64,000 nt of DNA from Collimonas fungivorans Ter331 (GTDB lineage Bacteria > Pseudomonadota > Gammaproteobacteria > Burkholderiales > Burkholderiaceae_D): assembly GCF_000221045.1 (NCBI RefSeq), contig NC_015856.1, forward strand, positions 2,536,986 through 2,600,985, in the 5' to 3' direction. Below the pieces are notes generated by a model. That model was not told the origin of the DNA. It made no database searches and was given only the letters and a program-made list of their open reading frames with translations. The translations under genes were made by a program, and so were the position numbers. Shown here piece by piece: positions 15,029 through 58,080 of the stretch; within the stretch, counting starts at the first letter, position 1; each line of letters begins with the position of its first letter.

Positions 15029-16192
15029 TCAATAATTATTCTTGCGCAAGATCAAGCCGATCTCGGCAAACTCTTCCAGTATCTCCCCTATGCGCGCCGT
15101 CGCCACCGCCCCCAGCGCCTGCACCGCATGGTGACCGTGGAAAGGTTTTTTGCGCGCGCTTACCCATTGCAGCACTTGCCGGGCGTCGGGCGCCAGGATG
15201 CTGCGCTCGCGCCTGCGGCCCGATTTCATCACCAGCATTGCGTCGTTGCGGCTGCCGTCGATCTCGAATTCGACCTGCGGATTGCGCTCGAACGCGGCGG
15301 TAAACGTGCCGCCCCAGTCGGCCAGCAAAGCCGTGGCAGAGAGTGTCGCCACGGCCTCGCCGGTGGCATCGATCAGGCTTTGCAGGCGCTGCCGTTTTTC
15401 TTCCTGGCCCACGGTGGAGCCGAGGCCGAAGGCCAGTTCGCGGCCGGCGTCGTGCTTCAGCATGCGCTCCTTGATTTCTTCCATCAGCAGATCGGTCCAG
15501 GACGGCGGGTTGATGGTGAACAGCAAGGACAGCGACGGTTCGTGGTTGAGGGTGCAATGCCAGTAGCCCGGATGCAGGTACACCAGGGTGCCGGGTTTGG
15601 CTTCGAAACTCTTGCAGCTGGACGGCATGCGCGTCGGGAACGGCTGGCGCGCATAGCGCTGCATGTGTTCGTTGACCGCCGCGCCGGAAGACCAGCCGAC
15701 GTGCGGATTGACTACATGCTGGTTGGCGGCGACGCTCCACTGCTTGCTGCCGATCAGCTGTATGTTGATGGTGACGTTCGGATCGAAATGGAAGGTCGAA
15801 CCGGTGCCTTGCGAAATGAACGCCTCGAAATAGACATCGTCCTGGCGCAGCCCGAGGTCGCGCTCCAACGCACGCGCAATCGGCTCCAGCGCCGGCACGT
15901 GGTCTTCGACCTTGCTCAGGTACAGCGTGTAGCCGCTTTCATAAAAAGCCGGCAGTTGCCGCGCGGTGGCGTTGATCAACGGGTTTTTGGTATCGCGCGG
16001 GGCCCAGGCGTCGGCGTCGCCGCGCCAGGCTTCCAGCAGCGCATCGATGCTGGACAGCTCCGGGATGGCGGCGATGTCGGCGAAACGTTGCGGTGAACCG
16101 TGGCACACATACGGTTTCTTTTGCCAATAGCGCGCCATGAAGGTATCTACCGCCAATGGATGTATCAGGTCGGCCAATCCCAGCTTTTTCAT
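15029..16192 (-). CDS. JmjC/cupin-4 Fe(II)/2-oxoglutarate oxygenase
   Basis: The 387-residue protein has a JmjC-type double-stranded beta helix. The iron triad is readable as HFDPN (His135, Asp137) and the distal His in HPGYWH (His212), with NIQLIGSKQWSV between them. It starts like RoxA-type enzymes (FMARYWQKKPYVCHG) and has a helical C-terminal third. RoxA homologues hydroxylate ribosomal protein L16, but the ligand loops here differ (HFDPN rather than HLDQYD). It is the last gene of the minus-strand run that includes the NRPS genes, 164 bases after the previous oxygenase. It could therefore hydroxylate an amino acid or the peptide, for example the 3-hydroxylation of a Pro. Membership of the cluster is inferred. 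The start has GGGGAG five bases upstream. Confidence 0.82.
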   Translation of the reverse strand: MKKLGLADLIHPLAVDTFMARYWQKKPYVCHGSPQRFADIAAIPELSSIDALLEAWRGDADAWAPRDTKNPLINATARQLPAFYESGYTLYLSKVEDHVPALEPIARALERDLGLRQDDVYFEAFISQGTGSTFHFDPNVTINIQLIGSKQWSVAANQHVVNPHVGWSSGAAVNEHMQRYARQPFPTRMPSSCKSFEAKPGTLVYLHPGYWHCTLNHEPSLSLLFTINPPSWTDLLMEEIKERMLKHDAGRELAFGLGSTVGQEEKRQRLQSLIDATGEAVATLSATALLADWGGTFTAAFERNPQVEFEIDGSRNDAMLVMKSGRRRERSILAPDARQVLQWVSARKKPFHGHHAVQALGAVATARIGEILEEFAEIGLILRKNNY

Positions 16193-16356
16193 CGTCGCTC
16201 CCCTTGCCTCGGAACTACCAGGGACAACTCGGAAACCAGGCCCGTTTCAACGGGCTCCTCCAGAAGATTGATACGCTTGCATGATTGAGATTAGCACAAT
16301 ATTTCCATGTTGCAATATTAATTTTGTGCCACCGCCAGTTGGCGACGATACCGCGC

Positions 16357-17541
16357 TCAGCCGCCGTATTTCGCCAGGAATTCCAGGTTTTCGCTCAGCA
16401 CCGCTTGGAACTGGTCGCGCTGGGAAGGCACCCACATGGGAGGATCGAATGCCGCCACGATGCGGCTGGCCTCAATGCGAATGGTGCCGGCGATCGGTTC
16501 GCGCACGGCAAACGTATTGCTCTCCAGGCTGCCCTCCAGGTCGACCACAAAACCCAGCGCTTCGCTATCCTTGAGGCGCGCCTTGAACGATTCCTGCAGC
16601 CTGGCGGGACGGCCGGCGTGCGGCACCACGATTTCTATCGGCCGCAAATCCGGCAGCGGCACCAGCACCGCGGCCACTACCGACGACTTGCCGCTGGCAA
16701 CAGGAAACGCCAGCTCGGCTACCTCCTGCTGCACGATGGCCTTGACCGCCGTCACCTCGGCCGAGGCATCGTAGCCGGCCAGCGCCGTCACCAGATTGTC
16801 GGTCAGCACCGCGACCGATTCGACTGCGCCCGACGCCGTCACCGCGAGCCGGAAGGTGATCGTGCCCTGCACTTCCTTGTGTTCCCTGAGCTGCTCGCCC
16901 AGCCTGCGCTGGCAATCCAGGATCACCTTGCGCGCCGCAGCGGCGTCCAGCGGACCGGTCACCAGCGGCGAAGTGGCGCGCAAGTGGCCGACCAGCGCGA
17001 TGCGCCCTTCGATCGGATCCATGCTGCCTTCGATGGTCTGGGTGCCGTGCACGATGCGGTCGTCGAACAGCAGCAACTGGTTGAAATGGGCCGGCACCAG
17101 CTCATACAGCACCTCGCCGTGGACATGGTGTTTCTTGTAGCTCGGCACGCCGTCGCGCATCAGCAGCGTCTCGCCGCCGGAAAACTTCCGGCTCTGCCAG
17201 CGCGTCAGCGAGTACACGAAACCCCAGGTGCCGTTGTGGAAATCGCTGTGCAGCCCCAGCGTGCAGCCGTTGACCATCAGGTGCAGGTTAGGCGCGCCGG
17301 TGGGGATCAGGCCGAGGTTATCTATGCACCATTGCTTCATGTGTTGCATGAAGCGGCCGAACAGCGGCTCCGGGATCACCTGCTGCGGCACGGTGCGCAG
17401 GTAGGTGTACATCTGCGGCGCGCAGAAATACTGCCAGCTGACGGTCTGCTTGTACGCGTCCTTGACGCGCGCATCGAAGGCCGTGCGCATGGCCTCGGCT
17501 TCTCCGAAAAAATCGCTCACTATGTGCTGGCGCTTGATCAT
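16357..17541 (-). CDS. 2OG-Fe(II) oxygenase fused to a TonB/AgmX-like C-terminal domain
   Basis: This is a 394-residue two-part protein. Residues 1-200 form a prolyl-hydroxylase-like 2-oxoglutarate oxygenase: His98 and Asp100 in LHSDFHNGTWGF, the strand KFSGGETLLM, the distal His165 in DRIVHGTQ and the 2OG arginine in EGRIALVGH (Arg180). Residues about 225-300 (VQGTITFRLAVTASGAVESV ... ELAFPVASGK) have the G-x-V strand and FP ending of TonB-C/AgmX-type domains, followed by about 90 residues of unclear fold. The start at 17541 has AGGAGG upstream, and the longer frame to 17898 is only the neighbour read in another phase. Its place just after the TauD genes makes it a candidate proline 3-hydroxylase for the peptide; that role is inference. 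Confidence 0.82.
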   Translation of the reverse strand: MIKRQHIVSDFFGEAEAMRTAFDARVKDAYKQTVSWQYFCAPQMYTYLRTVPQQVIPEPLFGRFMQHMKQWCIDNLGLIPTGAPNLHLMVNGCTLGLHSDFHNGTWGFVYSLTRWQSRKFSGGETLLMRDGVPSYKKHHVHGEVLYELVPAHFNQLLLFDDRIVHGTQTIEGSMDPIEGRIALVGHLRATSPLVTGPLDAAAARKVILDCQRRLGEQLREHKEVQGTITFRLAVTASGAVESVAVLTDNLVTALAGYDASAEVTAVKAIVQQEVAELAFPVASGKSSVVAAVLVPLPDLRPIEIVVPHAGRPARLQESFKARLKDSEALGFVVDLEGSLESNTFAVREPIAGTIRIEASRIVAAFDPPMWVPSQRDQFQAVLSENLEFLAKYGG

Positions 17542-17587
17542 CCTGCCTCCTGCTGAAACATGTTGAAAGATTGTTTGGCTGCTGCGT

Positions 17588-18506
17588 TCAAAGCGCTCCG
17601 TGCGCGCGCATGTCGCCCAGCGCGACCCGTATCTGGCGATTGCCCGAATACGGCCGGCGCCCGTGCGCCAGCAGCAGGTTGTTAACCAGCAGCACGTCGT
17701 TGGCCTGGGTCTGGATCTGCACCGAACAGGCGTTTGAGCACGGTGTCGATGGTCTTGATCCAGTCCGGCGGAATGCTGCTGCCGTCGCCGAAAAACACCG
17801 TGCGCGGAAACTTGTCGCGGCTGAAATGCTTGCTCAGCAAGGCATCCACCTCTGGCGGCAAGGCATCGGGATGATGCAGCAGTATCTGGTTGAACCAAGC
17901 TTCCGTGCCGCGTTCCGGGATTTGCAGCAGGGCCTTGGTGCGGTACGACACCGTGACGTCATTCTCGGACGGCGCGTCGATCTCGTGTCCGCTGGCGGCG
18001 ACCTTCTGCTTCAGCTGCTGCAGGCTGTCGACCTTGAAGAACTGCTCCCACGATGCATCCAGCCCGCGGATGAAGCGGCGCCGGTAGACCAGTCCTTGCT
18101 GGCGGAAACGGTCCAGCATGGCGGCCGGCAGCTTGCTGGCCACCAGGCGGCCGTCGGACAAGGTCCACTCGCCGCCTTCGGGCGCCGGCTGCAGGCAATA
18201 GAACAGCTGCCGGGACGGCCAGCTGCTGGTGTGCGAGGCCTCGTTGTGGAACTGGATCTCGAGATGCTTGGGGTAAGGCGTCGCAAAATAGACGTTCTCG
18301 CTGGCGCTGGCCAGCGGCAGGTCGCCGTAATGCTTGTAGAGCCTGTCGCAGGCGGATTCCGCGCAGCGCTCGAAGCCCTCGAGCCCGCCGACCTCGAAGC
18401 CGCGGAACAGGACGTAGCCATCCGCCCACAGCGCTTCATCGGTCTGCTGGCGGTGCTGCCTGATCCAGTCGGCAAGCGGTTCTTGCGTAGTGCTTGAAAT
18501 ATTCAT
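17588..18506 (-). pseudogene. TauD/TfdA (SyrP-like) dioxygenase, frameshifted near its 3' end
   Basis: As written, the frame from 18506 stops at 17682 after 274 residues, with a low-complexity tail (GADPDPGQRRAAG). It has the proximal iron ligands HNE (His87, Glu89) but no distal His. Removing one of the two C bases at 17722-17723 joins LKRLF directly to VQIQTQANDVLLVNNLLLAH and then GRRPYSGNRQIRVALGD, ending at the TGA at 17588-17590. That restores a 305-residue enzyme with the distal His and the 2OG-binding Arg. The rebuilt tail parallels its neighbour at 18559-19512. SyrP-type TauD proteins hydroxylate carrier-bound Asp at the beta carbon. Either this copy is dead in this strain or there is a one-base sequence error. 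Confidence 0.8.
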
Positions 18507-18558
18507 GGTTTCCCTGGATTACGACGTTGAAAAGGAATGTACGGTCCGGCAGCCGGCT

Positions 18559-19512
18559 TCATGACATGGCGACCAGTATCTGGCGCTGGCCGTCGAACGG
18601 CATGCGGCCATGGGCCGCCAGCACGTTGTCGACCACCAGCAAATCGCCTTTTTGCCAGCGGAACAGGGTCCTGGCGCCACGCATGACTTCGCGCACGGCA
18701 GCCAGCGTATCGTTGGCTATGCGGCCGCCGTCGCCGTAATAGGCCGCCATCGGCAAGCCGCTCTCGAACTGCGCGCTGAGGTTGCTCGCCAGCGGCGTGT
18801 TGGAGGCATGGAACAGATGCGCCTGGTTGAACCAGACAGCTTCGCCGGTGACCGGATGGCTGCGCAAGGCCGGCCGAATTTCGCTGATGCGCAGGCCGCC
18901 GTTCGCCTGCCATTCGAAACCGATGTCCATCTCGCGGCAATACGCTTCCACCCTGGCCTTGTCGCCGGTGAGGAAAACCTTGGTCCAGGAGTTGTACCTG
19001 GATTCGGCCGAGGCCAGGTTGCGCACATACATCAGCCGGCGGCGCTCGAATTCCGAGACGATATCGGCTGGCATGGCGGCCAGGATTTTCCTGGAATCGG
19101 CGACCGGGGTTTCGCCGCCGCTGCCCGGCGGCGTATTGCAGAAGAAATACAGACGCTGCGGCCAGCGGCTGGCGTAGGACATCTCGTTGTGGAGCGGGAT
19201 CTCCAGGTGTTTTGGATATTCGGTCGAGGTATACACGCCGTCGGCCACCTGGCTGCGCGGCGAGGTGCCGCCGGAATAGTCGCGCAGTTCCGGCGCCATC
19301 GCCGCCACCGCCCGCCTGAAGTCTTCCGCATCCTGCAGCGGCAGCCCCCTGAGCAGGACAGCGCCCGCCTGCAGCAGCAGTCTGCCCAGCTCCGGGGTTG
19401 ACGCCGCCAGCCATCGGTAGCAATCGGGAAGGTCTGGATCGACTTCCACCAGCGCTGGAAAACCCGTGCCGGCCGCCACCGTTGCTGCGATATTTTCTAC
19501 AATGTTCTGCAT
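18559..19512 (-). CDS. TauD/TfdA (SyrP-like) Fe(II)/2OG dioxygenase, candidate aspartyl beta-hydroxylase
   Basis: The 317-residue enzyme is intact. The proximal ligands are in LEIPLHNEMSY (His108, Glu110), the distal His in VVDNVLAAHGRMPF (about His301) and the co-substrate Arg in GQRQILVAMS (about Arg310). Stand-alone TauD proteins of this type next to NRPS genes, such as SyrP in syringomycin synthesis, hydroxylate an aspartyl residue bound to a carrier protein. It begins 24 bases after the NRPS-3 stop with an AGGAG site, so it is co-transcribed. It most likely installs beta-hydroxyaspartate at module 5, module 8 or both. The substrate is inferred from the family and from the predicted product. 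Confidence 0.88.
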   Translation of the reverse strand: MQNIVENIAATVAAGTGFPALVEVDPDLPDCYRWLAASTPELGRLLLQAGAVLLRGLPLQDAEDFRRAVAAMAPELRDYSGGTSPRSQVADGVYTSTEYPKHLEIPLHNEMSYASRWPQRLYFFCNTPPGSGGETPVADSRKILAAMPADIVSEFERRRLMYVRNLASAESRYNSWTKVFLTGDKARVEAYCREMDIGFEWQANGGLRISEIRPALRSHPVTGEAVWFNQAHLFHASNTPLASNLSAQFESGLPMAAYYGDGGRIANDTLAAVREVMRGARTLFRWQKGDLLVVDNVLAAHGRMPFDGQRQILVAMS

Positions 19513-19536
19513 ATTGCGTCTCTCCTGAAAACGGCC

Positions 19537-22500
19537 TCAGCCGAGATACCAGTGTTTGCCGATCTCTTCCGCCAGGCGTGCGGCATGCGGCGGTTTCAGG
19601 ATCGACAGATGATCGCTGCCGTCAACATGCACCGCCCTGAGTCCGGGTTCGAGCCGTCGCCACGCATCGAGGTCGACGCCGTCGTCTTCATCGGCCGGTA
19701 CCGCGCAAAACAGCAGCGGCAGTCCGCCGAACGGCTGCGCCGCCTGGTAACCGATGCCGCACTGCCGGCAGAACATCTCGATCACCGGCTCGAAGTCTTC
19801 CAGGCGCGCCCTGGCCGGCAGCACCCCGGCTTGCTTCATCTTTTCGAACACCAGCAGCACCTGCGACGGCTGGTCGCGGCTGGCGAGATCGGCGGCGCTG
19901 ACGCCCAGGCCTGCGCCGAGGTTCAGGTCCATCAACTTGACATACTCATGCATGGCCTGGTCGCGATCGGCGTGGCCGTGCGCCCGCGGCGCCTGCGTGT
20001 CGACCAATACCACCGGAGCCACCACGGCGCCGGCCTCGATCAGCTGGCGGGCTATCTCCAGCGCGATCCAGCCGCCGAAGGAATGGCCCAGCAAGTGGTA
20101 AGGTCCGGCCGCCTGCATCGACCTGATCGCTTCGACATAACGCCGCGCCGCTTCCTGCACCGACGGCGGCGTTCCGTCCAGGCCGAGGAAACCCGCCGCT
20201 TCCAGTCCGACGAAACTGGCGTCGCCGACGAACCCGGCGCACAGGTCGAGGAAGGAGGTAGCGTTGGCGCCAGCGCCCGGGATGCAGAACACCTTGCGCG
20301 TCCTGGCGCTGCCGGTCCGGATCACGACCGCGGAAGCGTGCAGCGCCGGTTCGGCAGGCTTTGCACCCCTGTCGATCCCGGCCAGGATGGACGAGATGGC
20401 GCTTCCCACCCGCCCGGCGCGTGCGGGATCCATCATGATGCTCCAGTGGTCGCCGCCGATCGGATGGACTTGCAGCCGCCCACGGAGGACGGTGCTCCAG
20501 CCGTTGGCCGGATCGGAAGGCTGCGGCTGATGTGCGGTGAACAAATGCGCCGCGACATCGAGCGGCTGGGCATAGTACCGGTGCGCGGCTGCCCGCAGGT
20601 TGAACCAGAGTTCGGCCCTGGCCTCGAACTCCTCGCTGCTCATGTCCTTCTTCAACCAGCGGTTGTCCCTGGCACAGGCGATGGCCGAGACCAGGTCGGT
20701 GGTTGCGAGGATTTGCGCAACCTCGTCGTCGGCCAGCTTGTAGCCGAAATATTCGATGAAAGCGACCAGCAGCATCTGCTTGTCACTCAGGCCTAGCTCC
20801 GATATCCCACGGTCCGCCGCGCCGCGGTGCCAGCTGTCGATCAGGCCGAGGAATTCCACGCCCTGTCCCTGTTCCAGCAGCTGCCTGGCGACTTCGTACG
20901 CAAGCACGCCGCCGGCGGACCAGCCTGCGAGACGGTACGGACCGTCCGGCTGGCCTTGCCTGATGAGCTGGACGTAGCTTGCGGCCAGTGCTTCGTTGCT
21001 GCTGTCGGCGGTGACGGCATTGCGGTCGGCCCGGATGCCGTAGACGCCGATTTCCTCGTCGATATGGCGAGCGAGGCGTTCATAGGACAACACTTCGCCG
21101 CTAGGTTCGTGAATGAAGATCAGTGGCCGCCGGCTGCCGCCTTTGCGGATGGTGATCCACTGTTCGTTCGCCTGCTTATTGGGCTGGTTGCGGTTGACCG
21201 TAATCAGTTGCGCCAGCGTGCTCAGCTCCTGCGCCAGCAGGATATCTTGCAGCGCTACGTCGAAACCCTTCTGCTTCATTCCTTCTATCACCTGGAATAT
21301 CATCAGCGAATAACCGCCGAGATCGAAGAAATTGTCGTGGCGCCCTACCCGTTCCACTCCCAGCAATTCCGACCACAGCGCGGCGATCATCTGTTCGATT
21401 TCGCCCTGCGGCTCGGTGTAAGCCTGCTGCGCCAGGCCCTGGCCGTCCGGGGCCGGCAGCGCTTTGCGGTCGAGTTTGCCATTGGGCGTCAGGGGCAAGG
21501 CCGGCAATGGCACGAAGGCCGCCGGCAGCATGTATTCCGGCAGTTTCTCGCCCAGCCGCGCGCGCAGCCGGACCGGATCGGGCGCTGCGGCGTCCTGCTC
21601 CGCCACTATGTAAGCCACCAGCCGCTTGTCGCCCGGGCTATCTTCGCGGGCGACGACTACCGCTTCCCGTACGCCAGTCATCTGCAGCAGCTGTGCCTCG
21701 ATCTCGCCCAGTTCGATGCGGAAGCCGCGCAGCTTGACCTGGAAATCGTTGCGGCCGAGATAGGTTATGCTGCCGTCCTCGCGCCAGCGCCCGAGGTCGC
21801 CAGTCTTGTACATGCGGCCCCCGGCCCCGACTGCAAAAGGATCGTGCAGGAAACGTTCGGCTGTCAGCTCCGGCCGCTCGAGGTAACCGCGCGCCACGCC
21901 AGCGCCGCCGATGTAGATCTCGCCGACGCAACCCAACGGCACCGGTTGCCGCTCCCGGTCCAGCAGGTAGATGCGCGCACCCGGCATGACATGGCCGATA
22001 TGCGGCCGGCGGCCGTCCACCAGTCCGCAGCTGGCGTCGACGCTGCACTCTGTCGGGCCGTACATATTGAAGAACAAGACGCCGTCCACTGCACTGAGTG
22101 CCGTCCAGGCGGCGGCATCGATCGCCTCGCCGCCCAGCAGCAGCTTGCGCAGCGCCGGCGCCCGGCCTTTGAGAAAACCTGCGGCCTGCATGGTGCGCAG
22201 GTGCGAGGGTGTGCATTCCATCGCCTCGATGTCGTACTGCTCGAGGAAAACCAGCAATTCTTCGGCGTTGAGGCGGGTTGCCTCGGGCACCAGGAACACA
22301 GTGCGGCCCCAGGCCAGCTGGCCCCAGGCTTTGACCGCCATGTCGAAACCGAAGGAAGAGTTCCAGGCGATGCGGCGGCAATCGGGCTGCAAGCCATGGA
22401 TGTTTTGTTCCATGCCATGCAGGAAATTGAGCAGGTTGCGATGTTCGACCATCACGCCCTTGGGTATGCCGGTGGAGCCCGAGGTATAGATGACATAGGC

Positions 22501-40300: not shown

Positions 40301-43300
40301 CGTAGGAAGCTCGGCCTGCCGTCCCTGCTGTATTAACGCGACCTCTTGCAGCAGCAGCTCCAATGTAGTGTGGTCCATCACCAGGTGGTGATACCGCAGC
40401 TGCAGCAGCCAGCGCCGACGGGCCGCATCGTGGACGGCAAAACCCTGCAGCATGGGCGCACTGCGCACATCGAGCCGGAAACGGCCGGCATCGGCGTGTT
40501 GCTGCAGCTGGGACTGGATGTCGCCCTGCTCCGCTTCGAGCGGCAGCACCTGGACCACCAGCGCGGCATGGCGCCAGACTACTTGCACCGGTTCGTCCAA
40601 TCCTTCCCAGAACACCGCAGTGCGCAGGATGTCATGGCGTGAGATAACCGTGTTGAGTGCGGCCGTAAAACGATCGAGCCGGTCCTTGCTGTCGAAACCC
40701 AGCAAGGTCGGCAGGACATAGGCGTCGCCCTCGGTTTGCAGCAGATGGTGAAACAGGATGCCTTCCTGCAGCGGCGCCAGCGGATAGATGTCCTGGATAT
40801 TGGCGACGCCGCCCGGCGTCGCCTGCACAATCCGTGCGATATGCATTTCATTCAATGCGGCCAGCGGCAGCATGGCTGGCGTGATGGCCGCGGCGTCTTG
40901 CGGGATGCCATTGGCAGGCGGCACGACGTCGCGTTTGCCCAGGCTGGCGGTCTGTTGGATGGCTGTCGCCAAGGATGACAATTGAGGCTGGGCGAACAAG
41001 GAACGGATATCGATGAACCATTCGCGTCGGCGCAGTTGCTCGACAAGCCGGATGGCCAGCAACGAATGTCCACCCAGTTCGAAGAAATGATCGCGACGGC
41101 CGATACGTTCGACGCCGAGCAGTGCCGACCAGATCTGCGCCAGCACCTGTTCAATCTCGCCCTGCGGCGCCTCGTAGGCGCGCTGGATGAAGACGCCTCC
41201 TTCCGGCGCCGGCAGCGCCTTGCGATCGAGTTTACCATTGGGTGTCAGCGGCAAGGATCCCAGTATCACGTACGCTGCCGGGACCATGTATTCAGGTAGT
41301 TGCGCCTTGAGTTGCTCGTGCAGCTCGGCCGGATCAGGAGGCAATGCACCCGGCTCAGCCACCATGTAGGCCACCAGGCGCTTGTCGCCTGGACTGTCTT
41401 CCCGTGCAATCACCACTGTTTCGCGTATACCTTCGATGCGCGACAATCTCGCTTCGATCTCACCGAGTTCAATACGGAAACCGCGTATCTTGACCTGGAA
41501 ATCGTTGCGGCCAAGGTACTCAATCGATCCGTCTTCGTGCCAGCGGCCCAGGTCGCCAGTCTTGTACAACCGCTCTCCCGCAACGAATGGATTGTCAATG
41601 AATCGTTCCGCCGTCAGTTCAGGCCGCTGCAGATAACCCCGGGCCACCTGCACGCCGCCGATATATATTTCACCCGCGAGACCCAGCGGCACCGGCTGAC
41701 GACGGGCATCGAGCAGGTAAATCCGGGTGTTGCCGATAGGACGTCCGATCGGCGGCAGGTCTTCCCACGCCTCAGCCGGTCCTTCCAGAATATGTGCGCT
41801 GACCACGTGGCTCTCGGTGGGTCCATAGTGGTTGTGCAGCCTGGCTTGTCCGTGCCTTGTAAACATGCGCCGGATCGCTGGCGTGATCCGCAACTGTTCA
41901 CCTGCCGTGATCAGGTCTTGCAGCATCGGCAACGGTTCGGCGCGCTGCGACCACAATTCACTGAGATTATTGAGCGCAATGTAGGGCAGGAACATCCGTT
42001 CGATCGACTCCGCGCCGAGCCAGTCGGCCAGCGCCGGCAGGTCTTGCCGCAGCGCCTCGTGCAGCAGCACCAGCGTGCCGCCACTGGTCAGGGTCGAGAA
42101 GATTTCCTGGAACGCCACATCGAAACCGAGCGCCGCGAACTGCAGGGTCCGGGCCGGCTCCGGCAGCACGCTGCGCTGCCAGCCCAGCAGATTCACCAGG
42201 GCGCCATGTGGCATGGCCACGCCTTTCGGTACACCGGTGGAACCCGAGGTGTAAATCACGTAAGCAAGATGATCGGGCTGCAACCCCAGTTCCTCCGGGT
42301 GCAGGTTGGTAACCGAGGTATTTGGCCACTCCTCCTCATCCAACGCGATTGCCGTTGCTGGCATCCGATAAAGCAGCGACTTCTGCGTCAGCACCACTAC
42401 CGGCTCGCTATCCTGCAGCATCTGCGCCAGGCGCTCATCCGGGTAACTCGGATCCAGCGGCACGTAAGCGCCGCCAGCCTTGAGCGTCGCCACGATCGCC
42501 ACCACCATCGCCAGGCTGCGCTCAACACAGATCGCCACGTGCGCATCTGGACCGACGCCAAGTCCCCGCAGATGCCGCGCCAACCGGTTGGCTTGTTCAT
42601 TGAGCGCGCGGTAAGTCAGCTGTTCGCCATCCAGTTCCAGCGCGATCCGTTCCGGATGCGCGGCTGCCTGCTGTTCGAATCCCTCGTGCACCAGCGCCGG
42701 CAAGGCGTAAATGTGGCGGGTATCGTTGAAACCATGCAGGACGAGGTCACGTTCCGCCGCCGGCATCACGCCGATGGCGTACAGCGGCGTCTGCGGCGCC
42801 TGTTCCAGGGCAAACGCCAGTTGTTCCAGCGTCTGTTGCATGAACAGCGCTGTGCGTTGCGCCGATACCGACTTGTGTATCTCCGCGGTCAGTACAAAGT
42901 CCACGCCAAGATCGTCGACATAGAGACTGAAGGGATAACTGGTAAGGTCACGCCCTCCGAGGTATTCCATGCCTTCCGCGATTTCCATCCGTTCAAGGCC
43001 TTGCGCCTGGCTATGCCGGTAGTTCAGCAGCGCCGAGAACAAGGGAATATCGGCCGGCAGGCTGCTGCAGCGCTGGGCCAGCGCCAGTGAAGCATGTTCG
43101 TGGTGCAGCAGGCCGGTCAACGCCGCATGCACTTGTTGCAAACCTGCCTCGACCCCTCGTTCTCCCAATTGCACTCGTAGCGGCAAGGTATTGATGAACA
43201 TGCCCATGGCGCGGTCCGCGCCCGCGCCACCCTGCATGCGGCCGAACAGCACCGTGCCGAACACCACGTCGTCGCGGCCTGTGCACTTGGCCAGCAGCTG

Positions 43301-46300
43301 CGCCCAGGCCAGGTGGAACAGGCTGGCCGCGCTCAGGCCGCGCGTTTTTGCCTGCCGCCGCAGCCGCGCCGCCAGTTCGGACGGCAACGCCAGCCTGGCT
43401 TGTGCGACTTGCGTACCGTCGCCCTGCACATCCAGCAAGCCGAACGGCGCTGTCGGTTCATCGACATCCGCCAGCATCTGCTGGAAAAAATCCTCGTGCT
43501 CGGCTTGGCTCACGCCCAGCCTCGCCTGCGCCACAAAATTGCGGAACGGCACGGGCGCAGGAAGTTCAGCCTGGCGGTTCTGCAAGACCATCACCACTTC
43601 CTGCAGGATCAGCTCGGTTGTAGTGTGATCCAGTGTCAGGTGATGGTGCAGAAGTTGCAGCAGCCAGCGCTGGCCGGCGGCATCGTGGGCGGCAAAACCG
43701 CGCAGCATGGGCGCGCTGCGCACATCGAGCCGGAAACGGCGGGCATCGGCGTGTTGCTGCAGCTGGGACTGGATGTCGCCCTGCTCCGCCTCGAGCGGCA
43801 GCACCTGGACCACCAGCGCGGCATGACGCCAGACCACTTGCAGCGGCTGGTCCAGTCCTTCCCATAGCACCGCCGTGCGCAGGATGTCATGGCGCGCGAT
43901 GACGGCATTGAGCGCATCTGTAAAACGATCGAGCCGGTCCTTGCTGTCGAAGCGCAGCAAGGCCGGCAACACATAAGCATCGCCATCGGTCTGCAGCATG
44001 TGGTGAAACAGGATGCCTTCCTGCAGCGGCGCCAGCGGGTAAATATCCTGGATATTGCGCATGCCGCCGGAGACGACGTCGGCGACCACGGCGATCTGCT
44101 CGGCGCTTAACCGTACCAGCGGCAGCATTTCGGGCGTGATGGCGTCGCAGTCGTGGGGAATGCCGTTGGGCGGCGCCACCGGCTGCTGCCGGTCCGCTTG
44201 GCGGGCCAGCGCAACGGTCGCAGCCAGCGCGGCCAGGGTCGGTTCGGCGAAAAAGCTGCGGATGTCCGAGAAATATCCCTTGCGCTGCATGCGCTCCAGT
44301 AACTGCACCGCCAGTATCGAATGTCCGCCCAGTTCAAAGAAGTGATCACGACGGCCGATGCTGTCGACCCCGAGCAATCCCGACCACATCTGCGCCAGCG
44401 CCTGTTCGATCTCGCCTTGCGGCGCCTCATAGGTGCGCTGGATGAGGGCATCTCCTTCCGGCGTCGGCAGCGCCTTGCGGTCGAGCTTGCCGTTGGGCGT
44501 CAGCGGCAAAGCTGCCAGCGATACGTAAGCCGCCGGCACCATGTACTCGGGCAGCTGCTCCTTGAGCTGCGCACGCAACGCGGCCGGCTCCGTCAGCGAA
44601 ATGCCTGCTTGCGCCAGCAGGTAAGCCACCAGCCGTTTGTCTCCGGCCTGGTCTTCACGCACTACTACCACTGCTTCACGCACGCCGGCCACCCGCGCCA
44701 GCTGCGCTTCGATCTCACCGAGTTCGATGCGGAAGCCGCGGATTTTCACCTGGCTATCGTTGCGCCCCAGGTATTCGAGGCTGCCGTCATGCAGGTAACG
44801 TCCCAGGTCGCCGCTGCGATACATCCTGGCGCCGGCCGTTGCGCTGAAAGGATCCTGGAGGAAGCGTTCGGCCGTGAGCTCGGGCCGCCTCAGGTAGCCG
44901 CGCGCCACGCCGACGCCGCCGACATATATTTCTCCCGTCATGCCGACCGGCGCCGGCCTGCCCTGCGGATCCAGCACATACAGGCTCAGGTCGGGAATGC
45001 GCACTCCGATCGGACTGGGTCCCGCCCGCTCCGCATCGGCCGGGACCAGCAGCCGGCAGGTCACGTGCACCGTGGTTTCGGTGATGCCGTACATATTGAC
45101 CAGGCGCGCGCCATGGTTGCGCGCCGACGCATACCAGGGTTTCAGGCTGGCGAGTTCCAGCGCTTCGCCGCCGAAAATCACGTAACGGAGCTTGTGCCTG
45201 GCGCCGGCATCCTGGTCGGCCGCGATGAACTGGCGGAACGCGCTGGGCGTCTGGTTCAGCACCGTGACCCCATGTTTGCATACCAGCCGGTGGAACTCCT
45301 GCGGCGAGCGGCTGGCGGCCTGCGATACGATCACCAGCTTGCCGCCGTGGATCAAGGCGCCCCACAATTCCCAGACCGAAAAATCAAAGGAAAACGAATG
45401 GAACAAGGTCCAGACATCGTTATGATCGAAATGGAAGCAATCCTTGGTAGCGGTAAACAAGCGCGTGACATTGCGGTGCTCAACCATGACACCCTTGGGC
45501 GCGCCGGTAGAACCGGAGGTATAAATGACGTAAGCCAGGTGCGAGGCGTCCAGGCAGGCATCGGGATTGCCGCTTGATGCATTGGCCCAGGCCGATTGCG
45601 CCCACGGCACGGCGTCCATCACCAGCAGCGGGCAATCCTGCGGCGCTTCGATCTGGCCGGTCAGGCTGGCTTGGGTCAGCAAGGCCAGCGGCGCGCTGTC
45701 CTGCAGCATGTGCGCCAGGCGTTCCGGCGGATACACCGGATCCAGCGGTACATAAGCAGCGCCGGCTTTCAGCGTGGCCAGGATCGCCACTACCATTTCC
45801 AGGCCACGCTCCATGCAGATCGCCACCAGGTCGTCGGGCCGCAGGCCGAGGCCGCGCAGGTGATGGGCCAGCTGGTTGGCGCGCCGATTGAGTTCCTGGT
45901 AGTTCAGCTGCCGGCCGTCGTATTCCACGGCAGTGGCGTCAGGATCACGCAACACCTGCTGCTCGAACAATTCATGGATCAGCGTGTTCGTAGCAGTTGC
46001 CAGCTGCGGCTGGTTGAAGACATGCAGCAGCCGGCTGCGTTCGGCCTCATCCAGCAAAGGCAGGTCGGACACTTTCATGCCGGGGGTGTCGATGGCGGCC
46101 AGCACCAGCCGCTCGATGCGTTTGACGTGGTTGCGCACGTCTTCCGGCGCCAGCACGTCCGGGTCGAAATTGAACTCGATGTGGACAGGCTTGTCCTGCT
46201 CGTAATCCCGGACATAGATGGCAAGCGGCTGCCGCTCGTAACCGTTATGCAAGGGAAATACCGCCGTACGGACTTCGTCTTCGAACGCGAGGTCGCCCTG

Positions 46301-47374
46301 GAATCCTTCGACGGAGAGAGATATGTCAAACAAGCCGCGGCGGTCGCTAGCGCCGGCCAGCAGATGGCGATGGATTTCTGCCAGCGGAAAACGCTTGTGC
46401 CGATAGCAGCGCTTCAGCTCGGCAGCGACCTCTTGCAGCAGGCTCGCGAACGACTGAGCGGGATCGACCGCGATGCCGACCGGGATAGCAGAGGAAAACA
46501 TGCCTATCGTGCGCCGCTGCAGCGGGCCGGTGCGGTTATGCACCGGCATGCCGATGACAACCTCGTCGCGGCGGTTGAAGAAGCGCCAAAAATAGACCGC
46601 CAGCGCCGCCAGCAGGAAATGCGTGCTCGAACCACCCTGCGCGGCCGCCGCCTGGTTCAGGCGCGAAAACGCTTGCCGCTCGAGCTGCCACACGACTTGT
46701 CCGAACAGGCGGCCGGAACGTCCTCTGCGCCCTGAGGCTGCTTCGAACAACGGCTCAGGCAAGCTGGCGAACCGCCCCAGCCAGAACTCGCGATCCTTGG
46801 CGAAACGCAGGGACGACAGGTATTCGCTGTCCTTCGCCAGGAAATCGCCATACGAAGCCGCCGCGCCGCCCACGGTCAGCGGTTCGCCGCGCCGCAGGCG
46901 GTTGTAGGCTTCTACCACGGCGCTGCCGACCAGCGAGATCGACATGCCGTCCGCCACCAGGTGATGGAAACATAACAGCCAATAGGCGCGCTCTGGTCCC
47001 GCCTGCAGCCACTGCATGGTCCAGAGCCGGCCGCCATACAGTTCGAAAGGCGTGCCGAATATTTTCCTGATATGCGACCAGGCCTGTCCCTGCGGGTCAT
47101 CGTGCGCAGAGAAATCGAAGCGCTGCAACGACGGCCGGCCATCTGCTGCAAAGCGCTGCATGCAGCCGCCCTGGTCCTGTTCCAGCATGATGCGCAAGGC
47201 TTCGTTTGTTTCGGCTACGTGCCGGACCGCCGCTTCGAAACGATCGACATCGTGCAAGCCATCCACCTGGACCGCGGTGCCGATGTTATAGCAAGGCAGG
47301 TCCGGCGCCAGGAGCTGGTCCAGCCACACCGCTTGCTGGGTTGAACTCAAAGGGTAAAGGACATCGTTGCTCAT
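31304..47374 (-). CDS. NRPS-1: modules 1 to 5, with starter condensation domain
   Basis: About 5356 residues, five C-A-T modules. C1 (5-440, HHLVADG) opens the protein, has no docking domain before it, and resembles starter domains that take an acyl group. C2 and C3 have the dual C/E motifs HHMLQTDGD and HHLLQTEGD; C4 and C5 are LCL (HHIISDGWS). T domains lie near residues 1018, 2103, 3190, 4251 and 5311. Pocket residues read by alignment to GrsA: A1 DFWNIGMVHK (Thr), A2 and A3 DVQFIAHVVK (Pro), A4 DVENVGAINK (no exact match known to me; Glu239 suggests a basic substrate, probably Arg), A5 DMKELGMVDK (acidic). Modules 2 and 3 are near-duplicates. The start at MSNDVLYPLSSTQQ is chosen over 47431 because it begins the C domain; its ribosome-binding site is weak. 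Confidence 0.95.
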   Translation of the reverse strand: MSNDVLYPLSSTQQAVWLDQLLAPDLPCYNIGTAVQVDGLHDVDRFEAAVRHVAETNEALRIMLEQDQGGCMQRFAADGRPSLQRFDFSAHDDPQGQAWSHIRKIFGTPFELYGGRLWTMQWLQAGPERAYWLLCFHHLVADGMSISLVGSAVVEAYNRLRRGEPLTVGGAAASYGDFLAKDSEYLSSLRFAKDREFWLGRFASLPEPLFEAASGRRGRSGRLFGQVVWQLERQAFSRLNQAAAAQGGSSTHFLLAALAVYFWRFFNRRDEVVIGMPVHNRTGPLQRRTIGMFSSAIPVGIAVDPAQSFASLLQEVAAELKRCYRHKRFPLAEIHRHLLAGASDRRGLFDISLSVEGFQGDLAFEDEVRTAVFPLHNGYERQPLAIYVRDYEQDKPVHIEFNFDPDVLAPEDVRNHVKRIERLVLAAIDTPGMKVSDLPLLDEAERSRLLHVFNQPQLATATNTLIHELFEQQVLRDPDATAVEYDGRQLNYQELNRRANQLAHHLRGLGLRPDDLVAICMERGLEMVVAILATLKAGAAYVPLDPVYPPERLAHMLQDSAPLALLTQASLTGQIEAPQDCPLLVMDAVPWAQSAWANASSGNPDACLDASHLAYVIYTSGSTGAPKGVMVEHRNVTRLFTATKDCFHFDHNDVWTLFHSFSFDFSVWELWGALIHGGKLVIVSQAASRSPQEFHRLVCKHGVTVLNQTPSAFRQFIAADQDAGARHKLRYVIFGGEALELASLKPWYASARNHGARLVNMYGITETTVHVTCRLLVPADAERAGPSPIGVRIPDLSLYVLDPQGRPAPVGMTGEIYVGGVGVARGYLRRPELTAERFLQDPFSATAGARMYRSGDLGRYLHDGSLEYLGRNDSQVKIRGFRIELGEIEAQLARVAGVREAVVVVREDQAGDKRLVAYLLAQAGISLTEPAALRAQLKEQLPEYMVPAAYVSLAALPLTPNGKLDRKALPTPEGDALIQRTYEAPQGEIEQALAQMWSGLLGVDSIGRRDHFFELGGHSILAVQLLERMQRKGYFSDIRSFFAEPTLAALAATVALARQADRQQPVAPPNGIPHDCDAITPEMLPLVRLSAEQIAVVADVVSGGMRNIQDIYPLAPLQEGILFHHMLQTDGDAYVLPALLRFDSKDRLDRFTDALNAVIARHDILRTAVLWEGLDQPLQVVWRHAALVVQVLPLEAEQGDIQSQLQQHADARRFRLDVRSAPMLRGFAAHDAAGQRWLLQLLHHHLTLDHTTTELILQEVVMVLQNRQAELPAPVPFRNFVAQARLGVSQAEHEDFFQQMLADVDEPTAPFGLLDVQGDGTQVAQARLALPSELAARLRRQAKTRGLSAASLFHLAWAQLLAKCTGRDDVVFGTVLFGRMQGGAGADRAMGMFINTLPLRVQLGERGVEAGLQQVHAALTGLLHHEHASLALAQRCSSLPADIPLFSALLNYRHSQAQGLERMEIAEGMEYLGGRDLTSYPFSLYVDDLGVDFVLTAEIHKSVSAQRTALFMQQTLEQLAFALEQAPQTPLYAIGVMPAAERDLVLHGFNDTRHIYALPALVHEGFEQQAAAHPERIALELDGEQLTYRALNEQANRLARHLRGLGVGPDAHVAICVERSLAMVVAIVATLKAGGAYVPLDPSYPDERLAQMLQDSEPVVVLTQKSLLYRMPATAIALDEEEWPNTSVTNLHPEELGLQPDHLAYVIYTSGSTGVPKGVAMPHGALVNLLGWQRSVLPEPARTLQFAALGFDVAFQEIFSTLTSGGTLVLLHEALRQDLPALADWLGAESIERMFLPYIALNNLSELWSQRAEPLPMLQDLITAGEQLRITPAIRRMFTRHGQARLHNHYGPTESHVVSAHILEGPAEAWEDLPPIGRPIGNTRIYLLDARRQPVPLGLAGEIYIGGVQVARGYLQRPELTAERFIDNPFVAGERLYKTGDLGRWHEDGSIEYLGRNDFQVKIRGFRIELGEIEARLSRIEGIRETVVIAREDSPGDKRLVAYMVAEPGALPPDPAELHEQLKAQLPEYMVPAAYVILGSLPLTPNGKLDRKALPAPEGGVFIQRAYEAPQGEIEQVLAQIWSALLGVERIGRRDHFFELGGHSLLAIRLVEQLRRREWFIDIRSLFAQPQLSSLATAIQQTASLGKRDVVPPANGIPQDAAAITPAMLPLAALNEMHIARIVQATPGGVANIQDIYPLAPLQEGILFHHLLQTEGDAYVLPTLLGFDSKDRLDRFTAALNTVISRHDILRTAVFWEGLDEPVQVVWRHAALVVQVLPLEAEQGDIQSQLQQHADAGRFRLDVRSAPMLQGFAVHDAARRRWLLQLRYHHLVMDHTTLELLLQEVALIQQGRQAELPTPVPFRNFVAQARLGVSEAEHEDFFRQMLADVDEPTAPFGLLDVQGDGSQIAQARLILPFELALRLRRQAKTRGFSAASLFHLAWAQVLAQCTGRDDVVFGTVLFGRMQSGAGADRAIGLFINTLPLRVKLGECGVEEGLQQVHAALTGLLHHEHASLALAQRCSGLPVNTPLFSALLNYRHSHVASADETEILEGVRFLGVRDRTNYPFGLYIDDSGRDFELTVQVDESVSAQHIALYMQQTLEQLAFALEQAPQTPLYAIGVMPAMERDLVLHGFNDTRHIYALPALVHEGFEQQAAAHPERIALELDGEQLTYRALNEQANRLARHLRGLGVGPDTRVAICVERSLAMVVAIVATLKAGGAYVPLDPSYPDERLAQMLQDSEPVVALMQKSLLYRMPATAIALDQESPAWLVASAVNLHPDELGLQPGHLAYVIYTSGSTGVPKGVAMPHGALVNLLGWQRSVLPEPARTLQFAALGFDVAFQEIFSTLTSGGTLVLLHEALRQDLPALANWLGAESIERMFLPYIALNNLSELWSQRAEPLPMLQDLITAGEQLRITPAIRRMFTRHGQARLHNHYGPTESHVVSAHILEGPAEAWEDLPPIGRPISNSRIYLLDAHRQPVPLGLAGEIYIGGVQVARGYLQRPELTAERFIDNPFVAEERLYKTGDLGRWREDGSIEYLGRNDFQVKLRGFRIELGEIEARLSRIEGIRETVVIAREDSPGDKRLVAYMVLESGALPPDPAELREQLKAQLPEYMVPAAYVMLESLPLTPNGKLDRKALPAPEEGAFIQRAYEAPQGEVEQVLAQIWSDLLGVERIGRHDHFFELGGHSLLAIRLISQLRQRLDIELPLAVLFAHPQLAELALEIAEAGQNTLSAITPADRSSPLPLSYAQQRLWFIARVDSQASVAYHIPGALRLRGVLDQPALKAALDRIVERHEALRTCFVTTDGQPSQLITPARGFLLAHQNAEGLAPHELENLCKQAAAEPFDLAAGPLIRGLLLRLGDDDHVLLVVMHHIISDGWSLSLLMQELSILYRAMCDSQPDPLPPLAIQYADHAAWQRQWLQGPLLQQQLGAIVKQLHGAPELVNLPTDRPRPALQDYQGASIEVALDAGLSQALKELGRRHGATLYMIVLAAWAALVARLSGQPQVVIGSSHAGRNRAEVEPLIGFFINTQALKFDLDGAPSVKDLLAQARNTALRAQQLQDVPFEQVVEALNPTRSMAYHPLFQLMLTWHNTPPVKLALADLSVERVDSLPGSAQFDLALDLEEVAGHIAGKLNYATALFDPPTVHRHWEYLQAMLRGMVADDQQAVDRIALLGDAERTQLLHGFNNSGLAYSAGALVHVLFEQRAAKNPEAVALEHEGRQLSYGALNRRASQLAHHLRQLGVRPDDRVALCLERGIDMVVAVIATLKAGGAYVPLDPVHPRQRLAQMLEDSAPAVLLTQASLLGRLPPDKATVAIDETPWEQSPWAACPTHNPEPAAIGLEPAHLAYVIYTSGSTGIPKGVMVEHRQLSHQAAVLNGLYAFQPEDRVLQFSALSFDVAAEEIFGALLHGATLVLRSDAWITDPQRWCQLCAEHRLTIANLPTLFWQRLAQEADVAIPPQLRQIVIGGDAVSAAAIEAWWQRQGHRPALNNAYGPTETTINAAVAQCGPRDGAGNIGRPLAGVRIYLLDAYGQPAPVGVAGEICIGGAGVARGYLHRPQLTDERFVRDPFADNPAARMYKTGDLGRWRGGGSIEFLGRDDFQVKIRGFRIELGEIEAQLSRIAGIREAVVTAREDKPGDLRLVAYLVADTAASRPDPAQLRTLLSAQLPDYMLPAAYVPLEALPLTPSGKLDRRALPMPEGEAFVRRVYEEPSGETEQVLAQIWSDLLGVESVGRQDSFFELGGHSLLAVRLISQLRQRLGIELPLAALFTHPQLAELAREVATAGQSTLSAITAADRSRSLPLSHAQQRLWYVTQIDAQAGPAYHIPGALRLRGALDQKALQAAMDRIVERHEILRTRFVSVDGQPCQVVDAPHGFALTHSDFTGAGADELKRIYRQEAVEPFDLARGPLIRGRLLRLGDDDHVLLLTMHHIISDGWSLSVLAREFSSLYRAMRRGEADPLAPLAIQYADYAVWQRQWLQGPLLRQQLQYWTGQLHGAPGLISLPTDRPRPEIQDYRGASIDVALDEELSRDLKTLAQRHGATLYMTVLAAWAAVLARLSGQAQVVIGSSVAGRNRAELEPLIGFFVNAQALSFKLDQQADVRQLLAQARQISLQAQNHRDLPFEQVVEAINPVRSMAYNPIYQVRLAWQNTPATHLDLDGLSFENVGSGAGSAQFDLSLDLEETGDRIVGQFNYATALFDQATVQRHWGYLQAMLRAMADDDGQPVEQIALLGDAEREQLLHAFNDKQRAYPAGTLVHALFERQAVEHPEAIALVYEDGSLSYGELNRRANQLAHHLRSLGVRPDDRVALCLERSLDLAVALIATLKAGGAYVPLDPIHPDQRLAHMLEDGAPAVLLTQARLHDRLRLPQGCTALVLDGTAWQQSPWAAAPTHNPDPGAVGLDASHLAYVIYTSGSTGTPKGVMVEHRNVLTFLHGLEERIHGLQPDCRRIAWNSSFGFDMAVKAWGQLAMGRTVFLVPENTRLSADAMLGFIEKHAIEAMECTPSQLRMMLAAGFPQERGHTLRKLLLGGEAIDAVTWRTLAAVESISFFNMYGPTECSVDAACGPVAGDIPQIGSVMPNARIYLLDAHRQPVPLGVAGEIYIGGAGVARGYLHRPELTAERFVHDPFAAAAAARMYKTGDMGRWRQDGTIEYLGRNDFQVKIRGFRIELGEIEARLVLLPGIREAAVTAREDSPGDQRLVAYVVPDPAVAAPDPGELRAQLSQQLPDYMLPAAYVTLAALPLTANGKLDRQALPAPDGQGAAQQGYEAPAGPTEQALAAIWGELLGVERVGRHDNFFELGGHSALAIQLIHNMSEKQLQADVQMIFNAPTLAHLASATIQLEEIVL
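37805..44330 (-). repeat. Tandem duplication of a whole proline module inside NRPS-1
   Basis: The stretch encoding C3-A3-T3 (about 37.8-41.06 kb) and that encoding C2-A2-T2 (about 41.06-44.3 kb) are near-identical at DNA level over long runs, with a period of about 3.26 kb. For example, the run ccgtgcaatcaccactgttt occurs at 38141 and 41402. Identity is highest across the adenylation domains, and a small indel shifts the spacing by 6 bases near 39.33/42.59 kb. This indicates a recent duplication or gene conversion and is a place where assemblies can collapse. Confidence 0.85.
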
Positions 47375-47446
47375 GGGATGGGCTCGCGGTTGACAGCTCA
47401 AGGAAGGGAAGCGCGGCAGCGGCGCATGCAAGGAACCGGCATAGGC

Positions 47447-48847
47447 TCAATCCTCTGCTCGCTCTGGCACCAGCACATCGAGCCGCCGCAAGCGGCTGCT
47501 GGCGAGGGCCAGCAAGGTCAGCGCCAGGCCGCAGAGACCGCACAGGAAAAACAGGAAACCGATGCCGCGTCCCTTGCCGCTGCCGAACCAGCCGCCGATC
47601 GAGGCGCTCAAGGCGCCGCCGGCGGCAAACGCCGGTTCCAGCACCGCGTCGGCCAGGTAGCCGCCGGCCAGCAGCACCAGGCACATGACCAGCATGTTGG
47701 ACGCCGCCAGCAGCGCAAAGACGCTGCCCTGATGGGCCAGCGGCGCCTTGCGCATCCATAGCGCGTATGAGCAGGCGACCGAAGTGCTGCCGCAAAACAG
47801 GCAGGCGAATGCGCATGCGCACCAGACCGCAACCGAAGTCGACAGGCCGGCGCCGAGGACCGCTGCAGACTGGACCGCATCGCAGACCAATATCCACAGC
47901 ATCAGGTCGCGCTTGATGACTGAGCTCGCCACCAGCATCGACCCGGCCAGGCCGCCGACGATGCCGACCGACATCACCGTGCCGAGCGCTTCGGTGGCAT
48001 GGGTCGACAGCACCATCGGCGTCAGCATGGTGGTCGCCAGCACCATCAGGCATTGCACCAGCGCGCCGTACAGCAGCAGGCTGCGCATCAGAGGCTGTTC
48101 TTTCAGATAACCCAATGCACCGGAAAAACTGGTCCTGGCGCTGGTCCAGAACGAACCCTGCGCCAGTGCGGCAGAGGCAGAGCCGCCGCGCGCCGCGCCG
48201 CCGGCCCTGGTCAGCGCGCCGAACACCAGCAGCGCGCCCGCCGCCAGCAGGCAGAACTGCACCGCCATCACTGCCTGCAAGCCGAAATACGCCATCAGGA
48301 AACCGGACGCAGCCGGCGCCCCGACCTGCACGATGGATCGCGAAATGCCGGTCAGTCCGCCGACCTGGGCAAACCTGTCCTTGGGAATGAAATTGCTGAC
48401 CGCAACCCGGATCGCCGGCCGCCGCAAGGCGCCGATCGCTGCCGCGGCAGCTGCATACAGATAAAAGGCAGTGACGCTCATGCGGTCCGCCAGCAGCGAC
48501 AGCAGCACCGCAGCCGTACAGAGGATGGCGGCAACATCGCAGCCGAGCACTACCCAGCGCCGGTCGTAACGGTCCGCCAGCGCGCCTGCCACGGGCGTCA
48601 CCAGCATCGACGCCAGCGCCGCCGCCAGCACCGACAAGGAGTAATCCTGGGCCGAACCCGTATGGGAAAAAATCCAGACGCCGACGGCGAAGCTCACCAA
48701 GGTGCTGCCGAGATCGAACGCGGTTTCGCTCAGCCACAGCAGCCCGAATGTCAGCCGGGCGACTGCCGGCGATGCGGCTTGGCGGAACTGCTTCCTTACT
48801 TCTTCGTTCGACGAGGGTAGCTGGCCTTCAACGCTTACCTCAGGCAT
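47447..48847 (-). CDS. MFS exporter (EntS/MFS_3-like), first gene of the NRPS operon
   Basis: The 466-residue membrane protein has about 12 predicted hydrophobic segments. The MFS signature GALADRYDRRWVVLGCD lies between TM2 and TM3, and FIPKDRFAQVGGLTGISRSIVQVGAPAASGFLM is typical of the MFS_3/EntS exporter group that carries siderophores and peptides out of the cell. It lies 72 bases upstream of NRPS-1 on the same strand, so it most likely exports the peptide and may contribute to self-protection. No clear ribosome-binding site precedes the ATG at 48847, and no nearby alternative start is better. An ABC-type lipopeptide exporter is not present. Confidence 0.88.
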   Translation of the reverse strand: MPEVSVEGQLPSSNEEVRKQFRQAASPAVARLTFGLLWLSETAFDLGSTLVSFAVGVWIFSHTGSAQDYSLSVLAAALASMLVTPVAGALADRYDRRWVVLGCDVAAILCTAAVLLSLLADRMSVTAFYLYAAAAAAIGALRRPAIRVAVSNFIPKDRFAQVGGLTGISRSIVQVGAPAASGFLMAYFGLQAVMAVQFCLLAAGALLVFGALTRAGGAARGGSASAALAQGSFWTSARTSFSGALGYLKEQPLMRSLLLYGALVQCLMVLATTMLTPMVLSTHATEALGTVMSVGIVGGLAGSMLVASSVIKRDLMLWILVCDAVQSAAVLGAGLSTSVAVWCACAFACLFCGSTSVACSYALWMRKAPLAHQGSVFALLAASNMLVMCLVLLAGGYLADAVLEPAFAAGGALSASIGGWFGSGKGRGIGFLFFLCGLCGLALTLLALASSRLRRLDVLVPERAED

Positions 48848-52063: not shown

Positions 52064-52134
52064 GGATAGCTTCTTTCTGCGATAGTCATTGCTGCTTTCG
52101 GGGCCGGCCCATGCGGTCCGGCCCGGAACAGATA

Positions 52135-53145: not shown

Positions 53146-53161
53146 GATGTCTCCTACCCCT

Positions 53162-54199: not shown

Positions 54200-54231
54200 G
54201 GGCGTGTCCAGTCGTAGTGGCGCGGCAAGGG

Positions 54232-55173: not shown

Positions 55174-55177
55174 GGAT

Positions 55178-55630: not shown

Positions 55631-55686
55631 GTGTTCTCCTGGAAAACGGACTTGGGTTGGATCAAGGTTGCTGCGCGGCCTACTGT

Positions 55687-58077: not shown

Positions 58078-58080
58078 CGT

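Follow-up and report, generated by a model that had tools for sequence, protein, structure and literature searches.

The 64,000-nt window analysed here, part of the single 5,186,898-bp contig that forms the chromosome of Collimonas fungivorans Ter331, contains a locus of three contiguous non-ribosomal peptide synthetase (NRPS) genes that is very probably the trp (tripropeptin-type) cluster of this strain. This main finding is already published and is not new. The Pep2Path study of 2014 matched the cluster to tripropeptin A (the strain is printed as Ter33 in the text and table and as Ter331 in the supplementary legend; PMC4154637), and Song 2015 named trpABC, with 5, 1 and 2 modules, and found that a Ter331 trpA mutant lost its antagonism to S. 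aureus (strongly reduced, according to the abstract; PMC4690342). Ho 2021 placed the cluster among empedopeptin-like ones, called the Collimonas and Variovorax clusters tripropeptin-like and grouped three Collimonas strains, including Ter331, with tripropeptin-like producers (PMC8069584). The initial annotation of the locus, as one of the empedopeptin, tripropeptin or plusbacin type, is supported by the modules and adenylation pockets and was already in print together with a knock-out. The present analysis adds four points open to direct test: a further oxygenase-like gene, conserved among the clusters, which could supply the third hydroxylation; a revised count of D residues, now four; a revised left boundary; and a frame shift in one tailoring gene of this genome.

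The open reading frame (ORF) list, Pfam and motif scans placed the three NRPS genes on the minus strand, with five, one and two modules, respectively, and with no internal stops. From upstream to downstream, the genes are an MFS exporter, the three NRPS genes, two TauD-family genes (TauD 1 and TauD 2), a gene for a 394-aa protein and a JmjC_2 gene. The five-module protein (TrpA) exceeded the length accepted by the Pfam scan and its modules rest on motif scans; its likelier start is an in-frame ATG 19 codons inside the listed ORF. For the two-module protein (TrpC), Pfam returned two Condensation, two AMP-binding and two Thioesterase domains, TubC_N and a single PP-binding domain, and the second carrier domain (module 8) was detected by its FDLGGYS motif only. 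The N terminus of TrpC is a TubC-like docking domain, and the true start of the protein probably lies downstream of the TTG listed. Its two C-terminal thioesterase domains, with GWSAGG and GHSFGG motifs, bear out the pair noted initially, and release of a macrolactone is predicted from these domains. An orthologue of the MFS exporter was present in all four related clusters examined (65–93% identity).

Specificity-determining pockets were extracted from motif anchors by script, with the fourth letter read by eye from the printed context, and were translated using the specificity code that relates pocket to residue. The adenylation (A) domains read Thr (A1, DFWNIGMVH), Pro (A2 and A3, both DVQFIAHVV), a basic residue (A4, DVENVGAIN), Asp (A5 and A8, both DMKELGMVD), Ser (A6, DVWHISLVD) and Pro (A7, DVQFVAHVV). 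The order noted initially, Thr-Pro-Pro-basic-acidic-Ser-Pro-acidic, is therefore reproduced from pocket residues across eight modules, and it agrees with the computed prediction for CFU_2182-2185, thr-pro-pro-orn-asp-ser-pro-asp (Pep2Path 2014, PMC4154637), module 4 being basic here and orn in print. The eight collinear modules fit Thr-Pro-Pro-Arg-Asp-Ser-Pro-Asp, the order expected of a tripropeptin-type cluster, module 4 being basic by its pocket and Arg by comparison with relatives, where the published prediction is Orn. That order corresponds to tripropeptin C, (allo-Thr)-Pro-Pro-Arg-(OH-Asp)-Ser-(3-OH-Pro)-(OH-Asp) (PMC9581180). The initial annotation had given it for the class as a whole, which is right for tripropeptin and wrong for empedopeptin, Pro-Ser-Pro-Arg-Asp-Ser-Pro-Asp (PMC8069584).

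We consider it very improbable that Ter331 makes empedopeptin itself or a plusbacin in place of a tripropeptin-type peptide, even though the architecture and homologous genes are common to the clusters of empedopeptin order. Plusbacins carry an extra hydroxyproline. In the clusters of Duganella sacchari (G365), G373 and G303, as in published empedopeptin, modules 1 and 2 specify Pro and Ser, whereas in the window they read Thr and Pro, and empedopeptin proper was rejected on this ground. Plusbacin has Ala beside allo-Thr where tripropeptin has Pro (PMC4154637), and the corresponding module of a candidate plusbacin cluster is predicted to select Ser (PMC11451712). Among these relatives, A4 of three clusters, where the script failed, and A8 of D. 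sacchari, which it mis-anchored, were read by eye; D. sacchari contributed seven A and seven condensation (C) domains, most of its module-6 A domain being absent. The D. sacchari module-6 gene (loci L034 and L035, ~15.6–18.3 kb) lacks ~279 A-domain residues and retains an 875-codon open frame, a gap that may be an assembly collapse of two similar Ser modules. In G303 (L036 and L037) the five-module synthetase is divided into two frames of three and two modules.

The points that weigh against a tripropeptin-type product are the published prediction for module 4, which is Orn and not Arg (PMC4154637), the main text of Song 2015, which gives a bioassay of the trpA mutant and no mass-spectrometric detection of a Collimonas tripropeptin (PMC4690342), and the frame-shifted TauD 2 gene described below, which counts against a fully hydroxylated product. 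The first of these bears on a new congener with ornithine or another basic residue at position 4, an explanation that draws on the Orn call of NRPSPredictor2 in the Pep2Path study (PMC4154637) and that we regard as improbable. The A4 pocket of the window recurs in all three empedopeptin-order relatives (D. sacchari, G373 and G303, read by eye; none is known to be Massilia sp. YMA4, the empedopeptin strain), and, because empedopeptin has Arg4, this shared pocket favours Arg at residue 4.

A tree of C domains from five clusters placed C2, C3, C6 and C7 in one clade and C4, C5 and C8 in another, with C1 separate (G303 yielded seven of its eight C domains, and its labels past C3 are one too low). 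Within the window, C2, C3, C6 and C7 are 64–82% identical to one another and ~20% identical to the other types; an FHHxLQ segment in the N-terminal region and a core of the form HHxxxDH are common to all four. The same N-terminal region is present in C6, which has HHRLQSDSD where C2, C3 and C7 have HHxLQxxGD. The initial annotation had listed only C2, C3 and C7 as dual condensation/epimerization (C/E) domains, giving D residues at positions 1, 2 and 6; those three stand, and C6, as a member of the same clade, adds D5. Since C2, C3, C6 and C7 are all of the dual C/E type, residues 1, 2, 5 and 6 are expected to be D on sequence grounds, four residues and not three. In the empedopeptin synthetase of Massilia, too, dual C/E domains are reported in modules 2, 3, 6 and 7 (Ho 2021, PMC8069584), and a review lists four D residues of eight for empedopeptin and also for plusbacin (PMC10628113). 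C1 belongs to a separate lineage, sharing ~20% identity with the other C domains, and groups with C1 of the empedopeptin-order clusters, consistent with a lipo-initiation (starter) C domain by analogy with Ho 2021.

Together, these features allow us to propose a biosynthetic route. The starter C domain would place a 3-hydroxy fatty acid on Thr1, the eight modules of the three collinear synthetases would assemble Thr-Pro-Pro-Arg-Asp-Ser-Pro-Asp, and the dual C/E domains of modules 2, 3, 6 and 7 would invert residues 1, 2, 5 and 6. Release as a macrolactone would fall to the tandem thioesterases, and export of the product to the MFS protein. Two TauD dioxygenases and the third oxygenase-like protein are candidates for hydroxylating Asp5, Pro7 and Asp8. 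We infer the structure of the product, the site of each oxygenase and, by analogy with what is reported for tripropeptin C, an action on undecaprenyl pyrophosphate.

The need for several oxygenases had also been noted initially. Three conserved candidates are indeed present, with the qualification that TauD 2 is frame-shifted here and the third protein is only oxygenase-like. TauD 1 is intact, with its HNE motif at residue 108 and its HGR motif at 301, and is the probable Asp5 beta-hydroxylase. TauD 2 is 274 aa long in the window, compared with 305 aa in relatives (G004, a C. fungivorans metagenome-assembled genome and D. sacchari), and the G373 and G303 copies are also listed at 305 aa. It tracks the relatives to about residue 258 and then departs from their frame; the rest of the homology, including the distal HGR histidine, lies in a different frame at ~17588–17735. 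If the sequence is right, the Ter331 enzyme lacks one metal ligand and the product should therefore lack the hydroxyl that this enzyme adds, most likely that on Asp8.

An error of sequencing or assembly, with the fully hydroxylated compound made after all, has in our estimate an even chance of being the explanation. The DNA beyond the frame change still nearly matches that of the relatives with an intact gene (when it is read in the other frame, one of the last 44 residues differs from G004), and Ter331 is reported to be active against S. aureus (PMC4690342). A recent mutation would likewise leave the sequence after the shift unaltered, and the substitutions that adjoin the frame change resemble a real change more than one miscalled base; judging by them, we lean slightly towards a genuine frame shift. 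If the shift is real, Ter331 may make an under-hydroxylated product; if it is an error in the record, nothing changes.

The gene next to TauD 2 was recognized by codon composition. An ORF on the plus strand (16285–17556) was rejected, its G+C content being highest at the first codon position; in the opposite ORF (16357–17898, minus strand) G+C is highest at the third position, as in neighbouring genes. The start of this frame lies too far upstream, and the gene was taken to begin at the ATG at 17541. The gene adjoins both TauD genes in all six clusters, the window included, and its protein is 71–95% identical in the four clusters compared. H98-x-D100, G122-G123-E124, H165 and R180 are invariant in five of five aligned sequences, and the protein has a C-terminal part in addition. 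This arrangement of HxD, H and R resembles that of 2-oxoglutarate (2OG)-Fe(II) oxygenases. The protein matched no Pfam family (up to E 5, only TonB_C at 0.15 in one of five members), and among solved structures a profile search yielded no relative, its one match (E 0.23) being due to chance. AlphaFold models were too poor to use, with a mean predicted local distance difference test score of 45.8 for the whole protein and 35.0 for the N-terminal part. When 399 genomes of the order were searched with this gene, the window genome alone was returned, the five other cluster-bearing genomes evidently lying outside that sample.

We next weigh its function. That the gene encodes an accessory protein and no oxygenase, the two TauD enzymes accounting for every hydroxylation in line with the proposal of Ho et al., is possible though rather unlikely. 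It would accord with the blank Pfam result, the lack of relatives by sequence among solved structures and an hhalign probability of only 2.5%, and Ho et al. name just two dioxygenases, 0.9 kb each (PMC8069584), compared with 1.2 kb for the third gene. Against it, the HxD, H and R residues are invariant at the spacing of 2OG oxygenases, and the gene stands beside the TauD pair in all six clusters. In addition, hhalign to 2OG-FeII_Oxy_3 proteins placed these residues in register, at E 0.019 and a probability of 2.5% for the N-terminal part and at E 0.023 and 2.1% for the whole protein, whereas controls (six per query) gave E 0.13–0.76. The targets were 20 open frames from loci matching 2OG-FeII_Oxy_3, chosen by script for the HxD-H-R pattern, and the controls were one reversed alignment, three shuffled ones (two with equal scores) and alignments of C and A domains.

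The hydroxylation of empedopeptin offers a place for a third enzyme. It occurs at Asp5, Pro7 and Asp8 (one sentence prints Ser7; PMC8069584), and the empA and empB mutants, both plasmid insertions, gave a product with OH-Asp5 and unmodified Pro7 and Asp8 (empA) and a product with OH-Asp8 or zero hydroxylation (empB; PMC8069584). With the order of empA and empB taken from their lettering, we hypothesize that EmpB acts on Asp5 and EmpA on Asp8, and that neither mutant is described with OH-Pro7 because the insertions may be polar on a downstream Pro7 hydroxylase. A joint reading, which we put forward tentatively and rate as unlikely to hold in all its parts, is that the unclassified third oxygenase makes 3-hydroxy-Pro7, that the emp insertions are polar on its gene, and that the EmpA-type gene of Ter331 is genuinely frame-shifted, its product lacking one beta-hydroxyl, probably that of Asp8. 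If so, Ter331 would be a natural test of the role of that beta-hydroxyl in calcium-dependent lipid binding. Main-text passages of Ho 2021, Song 2015 and the Pep2Path study do not mention the third gene, and the main text of Song 2015 contains neither 'dioxygenase' nor 'hydroxylase' (PMC4690342). Nor do main-text passages of PMC4690342 and PMC4154637 describe the type of C6 or the TauD 2 frame change for trpABC. In the three non-Collimonas clusters the third gene is followed by one for an alpha/beta hydrolase-like protein with a GHSFGG motif (L032, ~2.7–4.1 kb; L034, 2895–4376; L037, 16205–17599); the matching position in the window is occupied by the JmjC flank gene.

The span given initially, 15029–48847, is correct at its right end; at the left end the JmjC gene falls outside, and the cluster proper extends over ~16357–48847. 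A JmjC protein of at least 81% identity is encoded in 8 of 40 genomes, and five Collimonas carriers (G003, G006, G007, G008 and G011; 81–92%) have no TauD 1 orthologue at 70% identity. The clusters of G365, G373 and G303 had no JmjC match within the 40-kb stretch examined around each. The JmjC protein was also considered as a fourth tailoring enzyme and dismissed, its gene being a genus-level flank gene that is present without the cluster. In G008 it lies directly beside equivalents of gene 60320 and the sensor kinase gene 61197, and therefore the stretch 16357–59301, comprising the cluster and a sugar-transport operon, is missing at the G008 site; on the other side, the distance from JmjC to the binding-protein gene (13797) is 4.7 kb, unlike in the window. 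In the G007 and G003 stretches JmjC was the sole match (the flank comparison reported matches exceeding 45% identity, with E no higher than 1e-30), so that the neighbourhood of JmjC varies within the genus. The operon adjoining the cluster (49452–59301) encodes a sugar ABC transporter, a PfkB kinase, an aldehyde dehydrogenase and a DeoC-type aldolase; in G008 (L046) operon and cluster are absent together from the same site.

Table 1. Genes of the trp locus and its left flank in the window, in order of transcription.
Feature	Position	Strand	Basis
MFS exporter, first cluster gene	47447..48847	-	Pfam MFS_1 1e-21
NRPS, modules 1-5 (starter C; Thr, Pro, Pro, Arg/Orn, Asp), 5375 aa; trpA, empE counterpart	31304..47431	-	Motif map, pockets, C-domain tree
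NRPS, module 6 (dual-type C, Ser), 1168 aa; trpB, empD counterpart	27801..31307	-	Pfam condensation, adenylation and carrier domains; pocket DVWHISLVD
NRPS, modules 7-8 (dual-type C-Pro, L-type C-Asp) and two thioesterase domains, 2815 aa; trpC, empC counterpart	19537..27984	-	Pfam, motifs
TauD-family 2OG dioxygenase 1, intact; empB counterpart by inferred order	18559..19512	-	Pfam TauD 2.3e-41
TauD-family dioxygenase 2, frame-shifted, 274 aa; empA counterpart by inferred order	17682..18506	-	Pfam TauD 2.4e-18
Third oxygenase-like protein, 394 aa, candidate Pro7 3-hydroxylase	16357..17541	-	ATG at 17541; conserved motif residues
JmjC_2 (cupin) protein, flanking gene outside the cluster	15029..16192	-	Pfam JmjC_2

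TauD 1 orthologues of at least 70% identity occurred in 6 of 392 genomes of the family (G000, G004, G005, G373, G365 and G303, the window included), and the matches in the other 39 of 45 matching genomes reached at most 47% identity. The module-6 gene was found at 88% identity or more in 3 of 15 Collimonas genomes, again including the window, one of them partial and in a fragmented assembly. A scan of genome contigs with two 7-residue patterns, which may miss related clusters, returned two loci. Orthologues in the four-cluster comparison were taken at E 1e-10, with at most three pieces per pair.

Within the window, identity reaches 94% between A2 and A3 and 82% between C2 and C3; the closeness of the two A domains points to a duplication, or to gene conversion, of recent date. 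The empedopeptin-order clusters show other pairings: A1 with A7 and, in G373 and G303, A2 with A6, these Ser-specific domains likewise being very close. It is plausible that recent copying between modules alters residues 1 and 2 across this cluster family.

Finally, we compared the locus with known systems. It is in all likelihood identical to trpABC of C. fungivorans Ter331 and Ter6, with the same 5/1/2 genes and the order Thr-Pro-Pro-x-Asp-Ser-Pro-Asp (PMC4690342, PMC4154637). The tripropeptins of Lysobacter sp. BMK333-48F3, compared by product, are like the window in residue order and carry a 3-hydroxy fatty acid, as predicted here (PMC9581180); their producer is gamma-proteobacterial, whereas the host here is a beta-proteobacterium (PMC4154637). 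The plusbacin candidate cluster of Lysobacter firmicutimachus, compared by description, shares an eight-residue hydroxylated lipodepsipeptide, dual C/E domains and two TauD genes, and differs in the Ala of its product and in a module predicted for Ser (PMC11451712). The empedopeptin genes empA–E of Massilia sp. YMA4, also compared by description, share the split of five modules (E), one (D) and two (C), the two thioesterase domains, the dual C/E domains of modules 2, 3, 6 and 7, the two 0.9-kb dioxygenases and residues 3 to 8, and differ at residues 1 and 2, which are Pro-Ser there and Thr-Pro in the window (PMC8069584).

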